Source of the DNA: Haloarcula sp. CBA1129
GTDB taxonomy: Archaea > Halobacteriota > Halobacteria > Halobacteriales > Haloarculaceae
Direction of reading: 5' to 3'
DNA: 64,000 nucleotides
NCBI RefSeq assembly: GCF_008729015.1
Contig: NZ_RKSM01000001.1
Coordinates: 2,418,001-2,482,000 of the forward strand
Position 1 is the stretch's first letter; every line of letters starts with the position of its first letter. The translations under genes and the position numbers were made by a program. The notes beneath the pieces were generated by a model. It was not told where the DNA came from, did no database searches, and worked only from the letters and a program-made list of their open reading frames with translations. Below are positions 54,743-64,000 of the stretch, piece by piece.

Positions 54743-55915
54743 ATGACGATCCTCATCACTGGCGGCGACGGCTACGTCGGGTGGCCGGCCGCCCTGCGAA
54801 TCGCGGACCGAACGGACGACCGAGTGCTACTCGTCGACAACTTCGCCCGACGGGAGTGGGTCGAGGACGTCGGCGCGACGAGTGCGACACCGGTCGCAAG
54901 CATCGACGAACGCCTCGACGCGGCCCGCGAGGTCCACGGCCTGACGAACCTCTCCTTTGTCGAGGGTGACCTCGCCGAGAAGTCCTTCGTGGACGAACTG
55001 CTGGCGGTCCACGAGCCGGAAGTCGTCGTTCACACCGCCGCCCAGCCCTCCGCCCCGTACTCCCAGATCAACGGCGAGCGGGCGAACTACACTCAGCACA
55101 ACAACCTGCAGGCGACGCGGAACCTCCTGTGGGGCCTCGAAGAACACGACCTCACCCACACCCACTTCGTCGAGACGACGACGACGGGCGTCTACGGCGC
55201 GCCTGAGTTCCCCATCCCCGAGGGCGGTGCGACGATGGAAAACCAAGACGAGCGCGACGACGTGCCGTTCCCCAACATGGGCGGGAGCTGGTACCACGCG
55301 ACGAAGGGCTTCGACGCACAGAACATGCGGCTGGCCCACACGCAGTTCGACATCCCGATCTCGGACGTGCGGACGGCCATCGTTTACGGGACCGAGACCG
55401 AGGAGACCCGCGCGGACGACCGGCTCAAGACCCGCTTCGACTTCGACTACTACTTCGGCACGGTCACACACCGCTTCTGTGCACAGGCTGTCGCGGGCTA
55501 CCCAGTCACCGTCTACGGCAAGGGCGAGCAGCGCAAGCCGTTCATTTCGCTTGAGGACGCCGTCGAAGGACTGGCCGAGGTGGCCCTGACCGACCCCGAC
55601 GAGCGCCCCGAGGGACTGACGGTGTACAATCAGGTTACGCGCGCCATCAGCATCGTCGAGATCGCCGAGACGATTGCAGACGTGGGCAGCGAGTTCGACC
55701 TCGACGTGGCTGTCGAGCACTTCGAAAACCCCCGCGACGAGGACGAGACCCACAAGATGGAGATCGAAAACGACCGCTACGCCGACCTCATCGGTGGCCA
55801 GTCACAGTCCTTCGAGGACGGCGTCGCCGACATCTTCGAGACGCTGACCCGCTACGCCGACACCATCGAAGCCCACGAGGACCGCTTCCTGCCGGGCGTT
55901 CTGAGCGAGGACTGA
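54743..55915 (+). CDS. UDP-sulfoquinovose synthase homologue (SQD1/Agl3-like SDR)
   Basis: The 390-residue extended SDR has GGDGYVGWPAAL (Rossmann, 7-18), QPSAPYSQI (101-109) with THHN-like YTQHNN, and the active-site YHATK (184-188). PSAPYS and the YHxxK...D pattern are those of SQD1, which makes UDP-sulfoquinovose from UDP-glucose and sulfite. Sulfoquinovose has been reported in Haloarcula hispanica S-layer N-glycans, so a role in a sulfonated sugar for glycoprotein or glycolipid is likely. First gene of a tightly packed operon. Confidence 0.85.
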   Translation: MTILITGGDGYVGWPAALRIADRTDDRVLLVDNFARREWVEDVGATSATPVASIDERLDAAREVHGLTNLSFVEGDLAEKSFVDELLAVHEPEVVVHTAAQPSAPYSQINGERANYTQHNNLQATRNLLWGLEEHDLTHTHFVETTTTGVYGAPEFPIPEGGATMENQDERDDVPFPNMGGSWYHATKGFDAQNMRLAHTQFDIPISDVRTAIVYGTETEETRADDRLKTRFDFDYYFGTVTHRFCAQAVAGYPVTVYGKGEQRKPFISLEDAVEGLAEVALTDPDERPEGLTVYNQVTRAISIVEIAETIADVGSEFDLDVAVEHFENPRDEDETHKMEIENDRYADLIGGQSQSFEDGVADIFETLTRYADTIEAHEDRFLPGVLSED

Positions 55916-55917
55916 CG

Positions 55918-56850
55918 ATGGACGTGCTGGTCACCGGGGCCTGTGGCTACATCGGCAGCGCCTTGGTCCCGCTCTTGCGAGCTGACGACCGCGTCGACAG
56001 CGTCGTCGTCTTCGACGACCTCTCCTCAGGGTCGCCGCGGGCACTGCTCGGCACGCTCGGAGACGGCCTCGAATTTCGCCGCGGCGATGTCCGGGAGTAC
56101 GGCGACGTGGAGAGCGCCATGCGCGGCGTCGACCGCGTCATCCACCTCGCTGCCATCACGGGCGCGTCAAGCACCCACGAGCGGCGCGAGGAGACGTTCG
56201 CCATCAACTACGATGGCACCGAGAACGTCCTGACCGCGGCCGGGAAGCTCGGCGTCGACCACGTCGTCTTCGCCTCCTCGTGTAACGTCTACGGCCGCGC
56301 GACCAGCACCGACATCAACGAGACCGTCGACCCCGATCCGATCAACCCCTACGCGGAGACAAAACTGGAGTCCGAGACGCTGCTGCGAGAATACTGCGAG
56401 GAGTTCGACATGACCGGCACCGCCCTGCGGATGGCCACCAACTTCGGCCACTCGCCGGGCATCCGGTTCAACCTCGTCGTGAACTACTTCGTGTTCCGCG
56501 CGCTCACCGGCCGCCCGCTCACCGTCTACGGCGACGGCTCGAACTGGCGACCGTTCATCCACGTCCGCGACGCCGCCCGCGCCTACGCGGAAGCGGCGTG
56601 CGACCCCGAGTCTTGGGACGAACCGGTGTACAACGTCGGGTCGATGGAGTCGAACTACCAGATAGCCGAAATCGCTGATATCGTCGCCGACGAGGTCGCG
56701 CCAGTCGACGTGACCTACCTCGAAGACGAACACCCCGGCCCGTCGTATCACGTCAACTTCGACCGACTGAGCGAGACTGGTTTCGAACCATCGTGGACGC
56801 TGCGCGAGGGCGTCCGCGACCTCGCGGAGAAATTCACAACCAATGACTGA
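55918..56850 (+). CDS. SDR-family sugar-nucleotide epimerase (GalE-like)
   Basis: The 310-residue protein has GACGYIGSAL (7-16), a HLAAITGAS stretch, ASSCNVYG and the active-site YAETK. NFGHSPGIRFNLVVNYFV resembles UDP-glucose 4-epimerase or a dTDP-glucose dehydratase-type enzyme. It starts 2 nt after the SQD1-like stop and overlaps the next gene by 8 nt, so it is co-translated with both. The exact sugar is not readable from sequence. Confidence 0.83.
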   Translation: MDVLVTGACGYIGSALVPLLRADDRVDSVVVFDDLSSGSPRALLGTLGDGLEFRRGDVREYGDVESAMRGVDRVIHLAAITGASSTHERREETFAINYDGTENVLTAAGKLGVDHVVFASSCNVYGRATSTDINETVDPDPINPYAETKLESETLLREYCEEFDMTGTALRMATNFGHSPGIRFNLVVNYFVFRALTGRPLTVYGDGSNWRPFIHVRDAARAYAEAACDPESWDEPVYNVGSMESNYQIAEIADIVADEVAPVDVTYLEDEHPGPSYHVNFDRLSETGFEPSWTLREGVRDLAEKFTTND

Positions 56851-57838
56851 GACAGAACCCACGAACGAGTCGCCCCACATCGCCGTCACCGGCGGTGCGG
56901 GCTACATCGGCAGCCGCGTCATCTACGAACTACAGCAGGCCCACCCCGACTGGGAGATCACCGCCATCGACAACTTCTATCTCGGCACCGTGCGGTCTGT
57001 TGGCGATGTCGACATCGACCACGTCGACATCCGGAATCGAGACCGGCTGGAAGCGGCGCTGTCGGGCGCAGACGTGGTGATGCACCTCGCTGCGGTCTCG
57101 GGCGTCGACGACTGCGAGGAAAAGCAGGATCTGGCCTACGAGGTCAACGTCCAAGGGACCGACAACGTCGCATGGTTCTGCCGCAAGACAGGCGCAGCAC
57201 TGATTTTCCCGTTCTCGATGGCCGTGATCGGCGACCCACAGGAGTTCCCCATCACGGTCGATCACCCGCGGGACCCGCTGAACTGGTACGGCCGAACGAA
57301 ACTGCTCAACGAGCGCGATATCGAGACGTACGCCGACGGCGCGTTCCCGGCCCACCAGTTCATGATCTCGAACCTCTACGGCAGTCACGAGATAGACGGC
57401 CAGACGGTTTCGAAGGGGACCGTCATCAACTTCTTCGTGAACCGCGCGCTCGCCGGCGAGACGCTGACAGTCTACGAGCCCGGCACGCAGTCCCGGAACT
57501 TCATCCACGTCAAAGACGTGGCCCGGGCGTACGTGGACAGCTGCGAGCGGCTGCTAGAGCAGTTAGAGCGTGGCGAGACAGGCGTCGAGAAATACGAGAT
57601 CGCCAGCGACGAGGACCCGAGCGTCCACGCCGTCGCTGAACTCGTCACAGACGTCGCCGCTGAGGTTGCAGACATCGATGCCGACGTGGCTCTAGTCGAG
57701 AACCCACGGGGCGACGACGAGACGCTCGTCGATTCGTTCCCGGTCGATACCGAGCGAACGGCCGACGCGCTGGGCTGGACGCCGGAACACAACGTCGAGT
57801 CGGCGATTCGGACGGCACTGGAGTCGGCGAACACGTAG
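56843..57838 (+). CDS. SDR-family sugar-nucleotide epimerase/dehydratase
   Basis: The 331-residue protein has an extra 13-residue start, then GGAGYIGSRV and active-site YGRTK, with NFYLGTVRSVGDVDIDHVDI near the cofactor site. It differs enough from its neighbour at 55918 that the two probably act on different sugars. It overlaps that gene by 8 nt and is followed by the STT3-like gene, which seems to have its own promoter. Confidence 0.83.
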   Translation: MTETEPTNESPHIAVTGGAGYIGSRVIYELQQAHPDWEITAIDNFYLGTVRSVGDVDIDHVDIRNRDRLEAALSGADVVMHLAAVSGVDDCEEKQDLAYEVNVQGTDNVAWFCRKTGAALIFPFSMAVIGDPQEFPITVDHPRDPLNWYGRTKLLNERDIETYADGAFPAHQFMISNLYGSHEIDGQTVSKGTVINFFVNRALAGETLTVYEPGTQSRNFIHVKDVARAYVDSCERLLEQLERGETGVEKYEIASDEDPSVHAVAELVTDVAAEVADIDADVALVENPRGDDETLVDSFPVDTERTADALGWTPEHNVESAIRTALESANT

Positions 57839-57886: not shown

Positions 57887-60220
57887 ATGAGCGATACGCC
57901 CGGGACGGGAGCGGTACTCGATGACCGGCCCGAGCTACGAGATGCGACGACGGCAGTTCTGGCCGTCGACGACGAACAGGACGGCTGGACGTTCGACGAC
58001 ATCCCCGTCGATTCGGGCCAGTTCGGCGAACTCGTCTCCGCAGGCATCGTCGAGAAGGACGGGGAGCAGTACCGCGTCGCCGACCCTGACGCGGTGCGGG
58101 CCGCGCTCGATGGCGAAACCGAGGCCAGTGGCGATAGCGGGTCCGATCTGGCTATCGGGGACGCCCTGAGTTTTGATTTCGACGCTCGAGCAACCGGCCT
58201 GCTCGCCGCCGCTCTAGCGGTCGTGTTTGTCGCTCGAACGTACGTCATCGGATCGGTCTACCGCGGCGGCGACATCGTCTTATCGAGCAACGATCCCTAC
58301 TACTACAGGTATCACGTCGAGCAGGTCGCGGCGAACGCCGGCAGCGTTGCCGACGCCGGGGCCCTCTCCGTACTTCCGGGCAGCGTAACAAAAGGAGAGC
58401 CACTCATGGTCGCGACGCTCTGGTGGGTCGCCAGCCTCTTCGGCGGGAGCAAAGAAGCCATCGGCCACGTTCTCGCTTGGTATCCTGTCGTATCAGCACT
58501 CGTCACGGCTGTCCTGCTCTATCTGCTCGCAGTTCGGGTGTCCAGCGACCGGCGTGTCGCTCTCGCGTCGGTCCTGTTTCTGGCGTTCATTCCCGGCCAC
58601 GCCTTCCGGACGAGCCTCGGTTTCGCTGACCACCATGCCTTCGACTATCCGTGGCTGGGCCTCACCGCACTTGCGCTCGTGGTCGCGCTAGCGGCGGTCA
58701 GGAATCGAGGGTCGCTTCGGCGACCACAGCCGTGGATTGCCGCGGTCGGTATCGGCGTCGGGACTGCCGGACAGGTGCTTGCGTGGGAAGCCGGACCATT
58801 ACTCGTCTTGCCAGTCAGTCTGGTGGTACTGGGACAGACACTCCTCGACGTGTCTAACGACCGGTCGGCACTCGTCAGGAACGTGCCAGTCCTTGCCGGC
58901 GTCAGCCTCGGTGCGATACTCGCTGGCAGTGTCCATACTGTCACTGGCTGGCAAACTGCGCTTGTGGCTAGCGCGCCGACACTGCTGACGGTGGGCACTG
59001 TCGTCGTCATTGCAACAGCAGAGGCAGCCAGACGCCTCGGTGGTACCGTCACGCAACTGGCTGCGGTCGATATCGGGCTTGGCGTCGTCGGCCTCGCTGT
59101 CTTTCGCTTTGGCTTCACAGAACAATGGGGCACGTTCAGTAGCCGGCTCGATACGCTGTTTCGGTCCGACGCGATCGCTGAAACGTACGGACTGTTCAGC
59201 ACAGATGCCTTTGGCTTCCTGTTCCTGCTCGGCCTAACGCTGTTTCTGGCGCTCCCGGCAATGGTGTGGGGCATCAACCTCGCTCGGAGCGACCGGAGCG
59301 GCTGGCTCGTCGTCAGTAGCTACGTCTGGGTGCTGTTCGTCCTCGCCGTAATTCAGGTCCGTTTCGTCGGCGAGCTGGCCCCGTTTCTTGCGCTGTTCGC
59401 CGGCCTCGCGTTCGTCTGGGCCGCCTCGTGGGTTGATCTTGCTAGACCGGTGCTAACGACCGGTGACAGGGACCTGCGGGACGCGCTCGTTCCGGACTCC
59501 CGAGCCCTCGGGTCACTGTTCGTCCTGTTCCTGCTGTTCGGAGCCCTCGGGATGGTGCAGGTTCCGGTGAAAACGAGTCAGGTACTCGTCGAGGACGGAA
59601 CGTACGGCGCGGCGACTGCAATCGAAGCTGACGCCGCCGAGAACGGCCTCGAATACCCCGAAAACTACGTCCTCAGCCGCTGGGGACAGAACCGCGTGCA
59701 CAACTACTTCGTCAGCGGCGAATCACGGAGCTACAGCTACGCTCGCCAGACGTACGCGCCGTTCGTCGCAGCGACGGACCCCGAGGAGGCCCACAATCGG
59801 ATTTCGGATCGAGTCGGATACGTCGTGACGACAGAGACCGAGGTCGAAGAGCCGACCACGATGTACGTTCGACTCCATCAGCAGTTCGGTAGTCAGAGCG
59901 GCGGCGTATCAGGATTGGCCCACTACCGGCCGCTCTTTGTGAGCGCAGACGGGAGCCACAAGGCATTCGCCGTCGTTCCCGGTGGTGCCATAGAGGGGAC
60001 AGCAGCCCCGAATGCGACCGTCTCTGTAACGACGACAGTCACTGTTTCGGACCGAGAAGTCACCTACGAGCGCCAGACGACAGCCAACCAGAAGGGTGTG
60101 TTCACGGTTACCGTCGCAAACCCCGGAGCATACACTGTGACAACCGATAGCGGAAATGAAACGACCGTCGAAGTCCCGGAACAGACGGTGTACGACGGCG
60201 GCAACGTGACGGTCAAGTGA
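57887..60220 (+). CDS. STT3/AglB-like membrane protein, divergent oligosaccharyltransferase paralogue
   Basis: The 777-residue protein has an N-terminal cytoplasmic segment (about 15-80) resembling a winged helix, then about 12 membrane segments of STT3 type (105-545). The first-loop acidic motif is kept as NDPYYYR (135-141), DHH is at 248-250 and AIAE at 429-432 fits the TIxE position. The WWDYG catalytic signature is absent: the aligned region reads LSRWGQNRVHNYF (about 596-608). The C-terminus is a short beta domain (EGTAAPNATVSVTT). True AglB is about 1000 residues, so this is a paralogue or an altered enzyme. Confidence 0.78.
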   Translation: MSDTPGTGAVLDDRPELRDATTAVLAVDDEQDGWTFDDIPVDSGQFGELVSAGIVEKDGEQYRVADPDAVRAALDGETEASGDSGSDLAIGDALSFDFDARATGLLAAALAVVFVARTYVIGSVYRGGDIVLSSNDPYYYRYHVEQVAANAGSVADAGALSVLPGSVTKGEPLMVATLWWVASLFGGSKEAIGHVLAWYPVVSALVTAVLLYLLAVRVSSDRRVALASVLFLAFIPGHAFRTSLGFADHHAFDYPWLGLTALALVVALAAVRNRGSLRRPQPWIAAVGIGVGTAGQVLAWEAGPLLVLPVSLVVLGQTLLDVSNDRSALVRNVPVLAGVSLGAILAGSVHTVTGWQTALVASAPTLLTVGTVVVIATAEAARRLGGTVTQLAAVDIGLGVVGLAVFRFGFTEQWGTFSSRLDTLFRSDAIAETYGLFSTDAFGFLFLLGLTLFLALPAMVWGINLARSDRSGWLVVSSYVWVLFVLAVIQVRFVGELAPFLALFAGLAFVWAASWVDLARPVLTTGDRDLRDALVPDSRALGSLFVLFLLFGALGMVQVPVKTSQVLVEDGTYGAATAIEADAAENGLEYPENYVLSRWGQNRVHNYFVSGESRSYSYARQTYAPFVAATDPEEAHNRISDRVGYVVTTETEVEEPTTMYVRLHQQFGSQSGGVSGLAHYRPLFVSADGSHKAFAVVPGGAIEGTAAPNATVSVTTTVTVSDREVTYERQTTANQKGVFTVTVANPGAYTVTTDSGNETTVEVPEQTVYDGGNVTVK

Positions 60221-61268: not shown

Positions 61269-62576
61269 CTACCAAGTCAACCCTTCGTAGGTGATGCCGT
61301 CGCGCCGTTCGATGATGCGTCGACCGTCAACGACAACGGGGTCGGTCATCTCGTCGAATTCTACATCGAGCGCCGCGAACTCGTCCCAGTCGGTGACAAC
61401 CACAGCGCCGGATGCATCCTCAAGTGCGGCCGCCGCCGAATCGGCGTACTCGATATCGGGATATCGCTCGCGCATGTTTTCGGTCGCCACGGGGTCGTAA
61501 GCGACGATATCGGCCCCGCGTTCCTGTAACCCTTCGATGACCGGAACTGCTCGCGTGTTCCGGATGTCGTCTGTCCCGGGCTTGAACGCCAGCCCTAGGA
61601 CGGCGATTCGTTTGTCGGACACGTCGACGTGGTCGTCGAGCAGGGAGAGGAGGCGCTCGGGTTGGGCATCGTTCAGTTCCACAGCCGCTGAAAGGACAGC
61701 GGGGTCATAACCCTGCTCCCGCGCCGCGGCGATGATGGCATCGGTGTCCTTCGGGAAGCAACTGCCGCCCCAGCCGACGCCGCTCCGGAGGAACTGTTCG
61801 CCGATTCGGTCGTCGAGCCCGATGGCGTCAGCGACTTCGTAGGCGTCGACGCCGAACTCCTTGCAGATGTTCCCGATGTCGTTGATGAGGCTGACCTTCG
61901 TTGCGAGGAACGTGTTGTTGGCGTACTTGATCATCTCGGCCTCGGCAATGCCGGTCTCGACGACCGGCACGTCGCCGTCAGCGCCCTCGCGCAGCGGCGC
62001 GTAGAGGTCATGGAGAAGAGTCGTCGCGCGGTCGTCGTCCGTCCCGAAGACGAGCTTGTCCGGATTCAGAAAGTCCGTGACGGCCGTCCCCTCACGCTGG
62101 AACTCGGGGTTAGAGGCCACGAGGAAGTCCGTCCCGCGTTCGAGGCCGGCCTCGGCGATCCGGGGAGCGAGTCGGTTCTCGGTCGTGTTCGGGACGACTG
62201 TCGACTTCGTGACGACGAGATGCGGGTCCGCTGTCGTGTTCTCAGCGCCAGTCAGCGCTTCGCCGATGGATGCCGCACCGGCCTCCATGAACTGGAGGTC
62301 AATGCTCCCGTCGTCGTTCGAGGGCGTCGGGAGCGCCAGCATTGTCAACTCGGTGTCGAGTATCTCCTCGTAGTCGGTACTTGCTCGGAGTCGCCCACCG
62401 CCATGCTCGGCGACGAGTTCGTCGAGCCCGGGTTCGTGTATCGGCGACTCGCCGTCGTTGATTGCGTCGACGATGTCTTCGTCGATATCTATCGTTACGA
62501 CTTCGTGCCCGAGATCAGCGAGACACGCAGCGACCGTCGTCCCGACGTATCCGCTTCCGACAATACTGACGTTCAT
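61269..62576 (-). CDS. aglM: UDP-sugar dehydrogenase AglM
   Basis: A 435-residue UDP-glucose/GDP-mannose dehydrogenase: [10 protein letters not shown] (Rossmann, 7-16), FxxxPEFxREG as [11 protein letters not shown], and active-site Cys in [13 protein letters not shown] (about residue 264). It oxidises a nucleotide sugar twice at C6 to a uronic acid. In Haloferax, AglM makes UDP-glucuronic acid for the S-layer N-glycan. It starts at ATG 62576 and diverges from aglF across 88 nt. Confidence 0.92.
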
Positions 62577-62640: not shown

Positions 62641-62664
62641 CGGATGGTCAATGAATTGAGGAGT

Positions 62665-63420
62665 ATGAAAGCTGTCGTACTCGCTGCTGGTGAGGGGACC
62701 CGTCTCCGCCCGCTGACTGAAAACAAGCCAAAGGGGATGGTAGAAGTCGCTGGAAAACCGATTCTGACCCACTGCTTCGAGCAGTTGATCGAACTGGGTG
62801 CTGACGAACTCTTAGTAGTTGTCGGCTACAAGAAGCAAGCTATTATTAATCACTATGAGGACGAATTCGAGGGTGTCCCGATCACCTACACCCATCAGCG
62901 CGAGCAGAACGGCCTTGCACACGCACTCCTGACCGTCGAGGAACACGTCGACGACGACTTCATGCTGATGCTCGGCGACAACATTTTCGAAGCGAACCTC
63001 CGAGATGTCGTCAACCGTCAGGCGGAGGAACGTGCTGACGCCGCGTTCCTCGTTGAAGAAGTCCCGTGGGAAGAGGCCGGGCGGTACGGCGTCTGTGACA
63101 CCAACAAGTACGGCGAGATCACCGAAGTCGTCGAGAAGCCAGAGGACCCGCCGTCGAATCTGGTAATGACCGGGTTCTACACGTTCACGCCGGCCATCTT
63201 CCACGCCTGCCATCTGGTCCAGCCCTCGAACCGCGGCGAGTACGAAATCAGTGATGCGATTGACCTCCTGTTGCACTCCGGACGAACGATCGACGCAATC
63301 CGCATGGATGGCTGGCGGAACGATATCGGCTATCCCGAGGACCGCGATCAGGCCGAGAAGCGGCTGCAGGGCGAGATTGATCCGGAGATGGCCGCTGAGA
63401 ACGTCGCTGCAGGCGAGTGA
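62665..63420 (+). CDS. aglF: Sugar-1-phosphate nucleotidyltransferase AglF
   Basis: The 251-residue enzyme has the signature LAAGEGTRLRPLTENKPKG and substrate/metal region LMLGDNIFE. It joins a nucleoside triphosphate to a hexose-1-phosphate; in Haloferax AglF is a glucose-1-phosphate uridylyltransferase feeding AglM. The tail is short, without a left-handed helix domain. ATG 62665 lies 27 nt after a TATA-like box; a longer frame begins at ATG 62644. Confidence 0.91.
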   Translation: MKAVVLAAGEGTRLRPLTENKPKGMVEVAGKPILTHCFEQLIELGADELLVVVGYKKQAIINHYEDEFEGVPITYTHQREQNGLAHALLTVEEHVDDDFMLMLGDNIFEANLRDVVNRQAEERADAAFLVEEVPWEEAGRYGVCDTNKYGEITEVVEKPEDPPSNLVMTGFYTFTPAIFHACHLVQPSNRGEYEISDAIDLLLHSGRTIDAIRMDGWRNDIGYPEDRDQAEKRLQGEIDPEMAAENVAAGE

Positions 63421-63740
63421 AGAGGGAGACCGGGTAACCGGAATACTCTCCACCGGACGCCGCCAAACGAAGCCGACGCGACGAGAAAACGATGTCGTTG
63501 ACTGGCGGATGGTTGGTGAAAGCCGGGCTAACTGCTCCTGATCAGTCGATGATGTGACTGGGAAGGAGTCGGGTGCAACGTTGCGATACAACTCTGACGA
63601 AATTCCAGCCTCGCCTCAGTGGCCAGTCCACCCAAAGACTCCTCTCGGCTTCAACAACAGCCAAACTAGCGGCAGCGCTGCTCAAGCCGCCGGAGTCGCC
63701 AGAAGACCGTCAGCAACGCAACTGGCCAGCGACGCGCTGT
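63421..63740. other. Intergenic region aglF/glmS
   Basis: This 320-nt stretch between convergent aglF and glmS shows no supported gene; the longest frames lack coding character. It contains one 10-bp palindrome, GCAACGTTGC (63575-63584). It may be a decayed gene or simply long spacer. Confidence 0.5.
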
Positions 63741-64000
63741 TTACTCTACTGTCACACTTTTGGCCAGATTCCGTGGCTTGTCGATGTTCCGCCCCAGCAA
63801 CGCGGCAGTGTGATACGATACCAACTGCAGGTGCGTATTCGCCAGCACGGCAGCGGCCCGCGGGTGTGTCTCCGGAATGTGAAGCACATGGTCGGCGTAT
63901 CGTTCAACGTCGCTCTGTCCATCCGTAATCGCGACCACCGGGGCGTCCCGCGCTTCGACCTCTTTGACGTTCCCGATAGTCTTCCGGGCGCGCTCGTCGT
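63741..64000 (-). CDS. glmS: Glutamine-fructose-6-phosphate aminotransferase, C-terminal part
   Basis: Only the last 86 residues are in the window. They match the end of the second SIS domain of GlmS: VVAITDG, then a variable stretch, and the invariant ending GRNIDKPRNLAKSVTVE. GlmS makes glucosamine-6-phosphate, the entry to UDP-GlcNAc, in line with the surrounding sugar-nucleotide genes. The gene continues beyond the window's right edge. Confidence 0.92.
   Translation of the reverse strand, partial: DERARKTIGNVKEVEARDAPVVAITDGQSDVERYADHVLHIPETHPRAAAVLANTHLQLVSYHTAALLGRNIDKPRNLAKSVTVE

Follow-up and report, generated by a model that had tools for sequence, protein, structure and literature searches.

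A haloarchaeal STT3 paralogue without the WWDYG motif: a candidate second oligosaccharyltransferase for the N-terminal asparagine of S-layer glycoproteins

What would an STT3-type protein do if the segment that recognizes the acceptor sequon had been exchanged for something else? This question is raised by a gene close to the end of the window, the stretch of 64,000 nucleotides from Haloarcula sp. CBA1129 that was analyzed here. To our knowledge, the N-X-S/T sequon is treated as a near-universal address for N-glycosylation. A search of the open-access literature found no description of a second haloarchaeal oligosaccharyltransferase (OST) or of an AglB paralogue lacking WWDYG. The protein and its two terminal domains are encoded as follows:

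57887..60220, + strand: STT3/AglB-like paralogue without WWDYG, 777 aa (profile, AF2 and structure matches)
57887..58129, + strand: N-terminal winged-helix-like cytoplasmic domain, residues 1-81 (AF2, structural matches, homology to the EMC3/TMCO1 (PF01956) N-terminus)
59981..60205, + strand: AglB_L1 C-terminal peripheral domain, residues 699-773 (Pfam PF18079)

The paralogue is a true STT3 relative with a GT-C fold along the whole chain. It scored above the cut-offs of both Pfam STT3 (PF02516; 26.6 bits, cut-off 24.5) and AglB_L1 (31.2 bits, cut-off 23.6), and reached 121.5 bits with TIGR04154, the model for canonical haloarchaeal AglB, which is under the cut-off of 450. An AF2 model made with 32 aligned relatives as input had a mean pLDDT of 88.1. 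The top PDB match of this model was A. fulgidus AglB (Foldseek E 1.3e-20), to which residues 97-777 were aligned with a VIA Z of 35.2 and an rmsd of 4.6 over 639 residues. PglB, ArnT, DPY19 and PMT were all clearly weaker structural matches. These data bear out the STT3-type topology that the earlier note had read from the sequence. The C-terminus, which it called short, is shorter than in AglB and yet retains the AglB_L1 domain.

The same note had described an N-terminal segment of about 65 residues as winged-helix-like, and an AF2 model of the domain agrees. The domain folds in the order helix-helix-helix-two strands-helix, and its best structural matches were winged-helix domains (Orc1/Cdc6), with modest Z scores of up to 7.9. 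It is also homologous to the start of the haloarchaeal EMC3/TMCO1 membrane insertase, which Pfam names PF01956 (genome search E 9e-7; pairwise BLASTP E 2e-9). The insertase of this genome that carries the homologous N-terminal domain lies at L002:1477-2367 (C1:2392573 region). The topology of AglB places the N-terminal end on the cytoplasmic side, and the added domain is therefore predicted to be cytoplasmic. Judged by this homology, the domain common to the two proteins is possibly a shared cytoplasmic docking module. A few of the 88 distinct family members lack the domain. Members at six other loci (L023, L028, L029, L030, L033 and L035) have an extra C-terminal LamG/concanavalin-like (lectin-type) domain.

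The residues on which the question turns are these:

58292..58294, + strand: Asp136, the acidic residue of the first external loop (NDPYYYR); 88/88 conserved
58628..58636, + strand: Asp248-His249-His250, the metal-site motif of the second loop (family alignment)
59180..59182, + strand: Glu432, the TIXE-equivalent glutamate (AIAE); 88/88, hhalign against AglB TVGE
59360..59362, + strand: Arg492, the counterpart of the AglB QRRF arginine; 88/88, hhalign
59675..59704, + strand: residues 597-606, SRWGQNRVHN, in the place of WWDYG (family alignment)

Conservation was counted over the 88 distinct members, which are divergent. D136, E432 and R492 were invariant in all of them. Position 248 was D or E in 88/88, H249 was present in 88/88 and H250 in 72/88. 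In a profile alignment (hhalign) with the AglB of the same genome, E432 fell opposite the glutamate of TVGE, and R492 opposite the arginine of QRRF. The retained acidic residue, DHH and AIAE listed in the earlier note all align to AglB. At the WWDYG site, VLSWWDYGHW of AglB was aligned with VLSRWGQNRV of the paralogue, so the SRWGQNR that had been proposed to replace WWDYG at 597-603 does sit at that position. All 12 canonical AglBs whose sequences were examined have SWWDYG. The family instead has the motif S-[RQEK]-W-G-x-N-R-x-x-N, and the check suggested in the earlier note, for conservation of RWGxN among orthologues, gave a positive result (W599 in 86/88, R603 in 87/88, N606 in 87/88). Conservation in 88 distinct proteins rules out a sequencing error or a single degenerate copy as the source of the motif loss. 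The DK motif is missing as well: VAVDWK of AglB pairs with VVTTET, and no DxxK was found there across the family alignment. In solved OSTs, the sequon Ser/Thr sits in a pocket formed by WWDYG and the DK/MI motif, and the main chain is gripped by TIXE (PMC8342417). From the alignments, the catalytic half of the paralogue looks intact and the reader of the +2 Ser/Thr is absent.

A class-wide profile search found the family in about half of the haloarchaeal genomes (~155/292). Membership was called at E < 1e-90, and a clear gap separated these genomes from all others, which gave 2e-20 or weaker or no match. Is the paralogue a replacement for AglB? The earlier note had asked for a separate AglB with WWDYG in the same genome, and one canonical copy (L004, VLSWWDYGHW) was found. 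Exactly one canonical AglB was present in 65 of the 66 genomes examined, with or without the family, suggesting that the paralogue is an addition and not a replacement. One genome (G117) has the paralogue and no canonical TIGR04154 AglB at E 1e-80, which could be a true loss or an assembly gap. Six family copies were detected on plasmids by tblastn, where megablast gave no match to the gene, and viral contigs held no relative. In public annotation, the plasmid copies appear as 'STT3 domain-containing protein', 'LamG-like' or 'hypothetical protein'.

The genes around the paralogue in the window are the following:

54743..55915, + strand: UDP-sulfoquinovose-synthase-like SDR, below the equivalog cut-off (profile match)
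55918-56850 and 56843-57838, + strand: two NAD-dependent epimerase/dehydratase SDR genes (profile; adjoining the paralogue in Haloarcula only)
61269..62576, - strand: aglM, UDP-glucose 6-dehydrogenase (NF041297, 763.5 bits; in 23/75 neighbourhoods)
62644..63420, + strand: aglF, UTP-glucose-1-phosphate uridylyltransferase (NF041313, 440.9 bits; in 29/75 neighbourhoods)

The earlier note had pointed to three sugar-nucleotide SDR genes directly upstream. They are present there, but they flank the paralogue in Haloarcula only, and these SDR/sulfoquinovose-type genes were therefore rejected as a general partner and functional key. Across 75 loci in haloarchaea, the recurrent partners were a PF02397 sugar-phosphate transferase (a phosphoglycosyltransferase, PGT; 38/75), SDRs, UppP, AglF, AglM, a DUF4330 protein, S-layer genes and a membrane protein with no assigned function. 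At two loci (L006:17404-19048 and L028:12964-15603), the DUF4330 protein and a small membrane protein with no Pfam match lie together beside the family gene; they are candidates for new subunits or flippase helpers. At the end of the window, 63554-63928 is an apparent leftover 3' piece of a membrane gene that trails aglF in other Haloarcula. The block of an aglF copy, PGT, DUF4330 and membrane gene, which follows aglF elsewhere in Haloarcula, is 620 kb away in this genome (L112, C1:1855877-1861238). The remnant is possibly a rearrangement scar.

Co-occurrence was measured in 80 genomes chosen as within-genus groups, 43 with the family and 37 without. PF02397 was found in 41/43 of the former and 1/37 of the latter, that one being a fragment. 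PF02673 (UppP) was found in 36/43 and 0/37, respectively. The control, Hfx. volcanii, had neither. Haloarcula sp. CBA1129 has a single PGT at C1:1858685 and a UppP at C1:2496427, 18 kb from the paralogue gene. A phosphoglycosyltransferase yields a polyprenyl-pyrophosphate-linked sugar and UppP recycles polyprenyl pyrophosphate, whereas haloarchaeal AglB uses dolichyl phosphate (Dol-P) donors. We therefore infer a donor linked to dolichyl pyrophosphate (Dol-PP). Since both enzymes also serve polysaccharide pathways, this link alone names no protein acceptor.

An acceptor is suggested by the S-layer genes. A full-length S-layer query recovers too few of these proteins for absence to be judged, and S-layer-type genes were therefore defined by the TIGR04207 signal peptide family. 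In 11/72 genomes, such a gene and the family gene were no more than 10 kb apart, compared to 0.77 expected at random placement (P 7e-10). With the limit set at 25 kb, the count was 16 of 72 compared to 1.9 expected. On a plasmid of Haloplanus sp. GDY1 (L326, NZ_CP098515.1), csg and the STT3 gene are accompanied by UppP, DUF4330, GlmS, PGT, AglF and epimerases. Salinigranum rubrum has a plasmid (L327, NZ_CP026310.1) with PGT, UppP, STT3 and two PGF-CTERM proteins within ~10 kb. These plasmid sets possibly represent a surface coat that travels with its own glycosylation enzymes as one mobile unit. Members at L038, L070, L073, L075 and L078, mostly without the winged-helix domain, adjoin SipW/TasA-like secreted proteins, a signal peptidase and a membrane protein with conserved Cys residues. 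The TasA/SipW-like proteins next to domain-less members (L038, L070-L078) are possible other acceptors.

Next to be considered is the mature N-terminus of the S-layer protein. Cleavage sites were set by rule, and an Asn was scored if it fell within two residues after the Ala-run of the signal peptide. By this rule, Asn stood at mature position 1-2 in 48/74 genomes with the family and 6/65 without. In the discovery set, the counts were 21/35 and 1/34 (P 2e-7), a P value that is optimistic because the Asn was first spotted by eye in these genomes. The validation set of new genomes, which is the fair test, gave 27/39 with the family and 5/31 without (P 1e-5). The S-layer protein examined was not the single best match in three discovery genomes (G034, G014, G289) and one discovery genome (G027) contributed no sequence; seven family-free genomes of the validation set were left out. 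The difference was also seen within the 15 genera holding both states (23/39 and 3/43), where the permutation P of 1e-5 is the floor of the test. The excess was confined to the first and second offsets (0.42 and 0.26 with the family, 0.05 and 0.06 without), and Asn frequencies at later offsets were about equal. In Haloarcula sp. CBA1129, two tandem S-layer proteins have the predicted start ...GGAAAA|ANVEIQQ, with Glu at +2 from the Asn. Only 12 of the 48 Asn residues had Ser/Thr at +2, near the background rate, and three of the six family-free genomes with an N-terminal Asn had ordinary sequons. Some of the 26/74 family genomes without the Asn have mis-set cleavage sites and some are real exceptions, such as a Haloplanus genome (G172) and, in Haloplanus GDY1, the csg located on the plasmid. 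Either some lineages use other acceptors or the Asn rule is incomplete.

These results can be set against the other ways of reading the locus. An exopolysaccharide or capsule ligase or polymerase, an analogue of WaaL/Wzy on an STT3 scaffold, would move a Dol-PP polysaccharide to a lipid, another glycan or an anchor. It would account for the strict co-occurrence with PGT and UppP, the sugar-nucleotide genes nearby and the lectin-like LamG domain of some members, and an acidic exopolysaccharide is produced by Haloarcula (PMC5467301, PMC9943897). However, the H. hispanica exopolysaccharide genes in those two papers are glycosyltransferases of other clusters and are not matched to the window, and such an enzyme predicts neither the S-layer linkage nor a position-specific Asn enrichment. 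We consider it unlikely. An O-linked oligosaccharyltransferase with its targets in the Thr-rich C-terminal region of S-layer proteins would fit the linked S-layer genes and the lost sequon pocket, and haloarchaeal S-layer O-glycans have no known enzymology (PMC9943897, PMC10384203). This is quite improbable, given that it leaves the Asn at mature position 1-2 unexplained. Another reading is an AglB-like enzyme whose pocket has been remodelled but continues to recognize N-X-S/T, serving a second glycan. It would explain why the TIXE-like Glu and AglB_L1 are retained, and A. fulgidus has three AglB paralogues (PMC3703281). With both +2-pocket motifs missing and sequons at only 12/48 candidate sites, it is very improbable. 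The diverged acceptor region and the extra cytoplasmic domain might speak for a role as a regulator or non-catalytic partner of AglB. This is extremely improbable, as the catalytic residues are conserved in 88/88, AglB is equally present in genomes without the family and G117 has the paralogue without a canonical AglB (E 1e-80).

The paralogue is thus probably a catalytically competent second OST that moves a Dol-PP-linked glycan to an Asn around position 2 of the mature S-layer protein, independent of a sequon. In this mechanism, the PF02397 enzyme would start the glycan on dolichyl phosphate to give the pyrophosphate-linked donor, which would then be assembled and flipped. The STT3 paralogue would transfer the glycan en bloc, and UppP would recycle the dolichyl pyrophosphate. 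Because the elements lost, WWDYG and DK, are those that bind the +2 Ser/Thr, the site would be picked by lying at the new N-terminus, perhaps aided by contacts of its main chain with the TIXE-like loop. Of the three roles offered in the earlier note, S-layer linkage and the Asn-2 correlation favour the non-sequon protein site over a lipid, and the conserved catalytic residues argue against the non-catalytic partner.

An N-terminal Asn of this kind is already known from Halobacterium salinarum. Its S-layer Asn-2 carries a repeating-unit glycan that is assembled on dolichol pyrophosphate and is sensitive to bacitracin, while other S-layer sites receive a Dol-P oligosaccharide (PMC2952790). As the 1998 work is summarized in PMC2952790 and cited in PMC8241124 (Zeitler et al. 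1998), Asn-2 was still glycosylated when Ser-4 was changed to Val, Leu or Asn. A second OST was once proposed, but the sequenced genome was said to hold one OST gene (PMC2952790, PMC4335974), which speaks against the paralogue being present in this species. A 2010 review stated that the sequon-free glycosylation of Asn-2 had no explanation (PMC2952790), and the enzyme was still listed as unclear in 2019 (PMC6591318). By analogy, the Asn-2 glycan would fit our reading of the paralogue. With a probe for the H. salinarum S-layer N-terminus, the closest one among the genomes searched was 72% identical (G018, the best relative in the presumed genus), and H. salinarum itself was not among them. We regard it as evenly balanced whether the family is a widespread archaeal N-OST that reads the N-terminus, is the missing Halobacterium Asn-2 enzyme and forms a portable module with its S-layer protein on plasmids. 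A paralogue with intact catalytic residues and no Ser/Thr pocket makes the Asn-2 question testable in the tractable Haloarcula. If true, our reading could explain the puzzle reported in 1998 and would provide a naturally occurring STT3 enzyme that has dispensed with the sequon, which would be useful in glycoengineering.

Compared to known systems, the paralogue is closest to AglB (AfAglB 3waj/7e9s; haloarchaeal TIGR04154), with which it shares the STT3 fold, first-loop Asp, DHH, TIXE-like Glu, Arg and AglB_L1. It differs in having xWGxNR for WWDYG, no DK and an added winged-helix domain, in its TIGR04154 score (121.5 against 450), and in its partners, which are PGT and UppP and not the Dol-P machinery of AglB. 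It would resemble the H. salinarum Asn-2 enzyme in its putative Dol-PP donor, an S-layer N-terminal Asn as the likely acceptor and an apparent lack of need for Ser/Thr at +2. The DPY19 C-mannosyltransferase (7zlg-7zli) also has an STT3-like GT-C fold and a non-sequon acceptor, and was a weaker match than AglB (VIA Z 22-24). DPY19 is eukaryotic and uses Dol-P-mannose and Trp. Bacterial polyprenyl-pyrophosphate initiation and recycling share PGT (PF02397) and UppP, both of which co-occur with the paralogue; the difference lies in the terminal transferase, which here is STT3-like.
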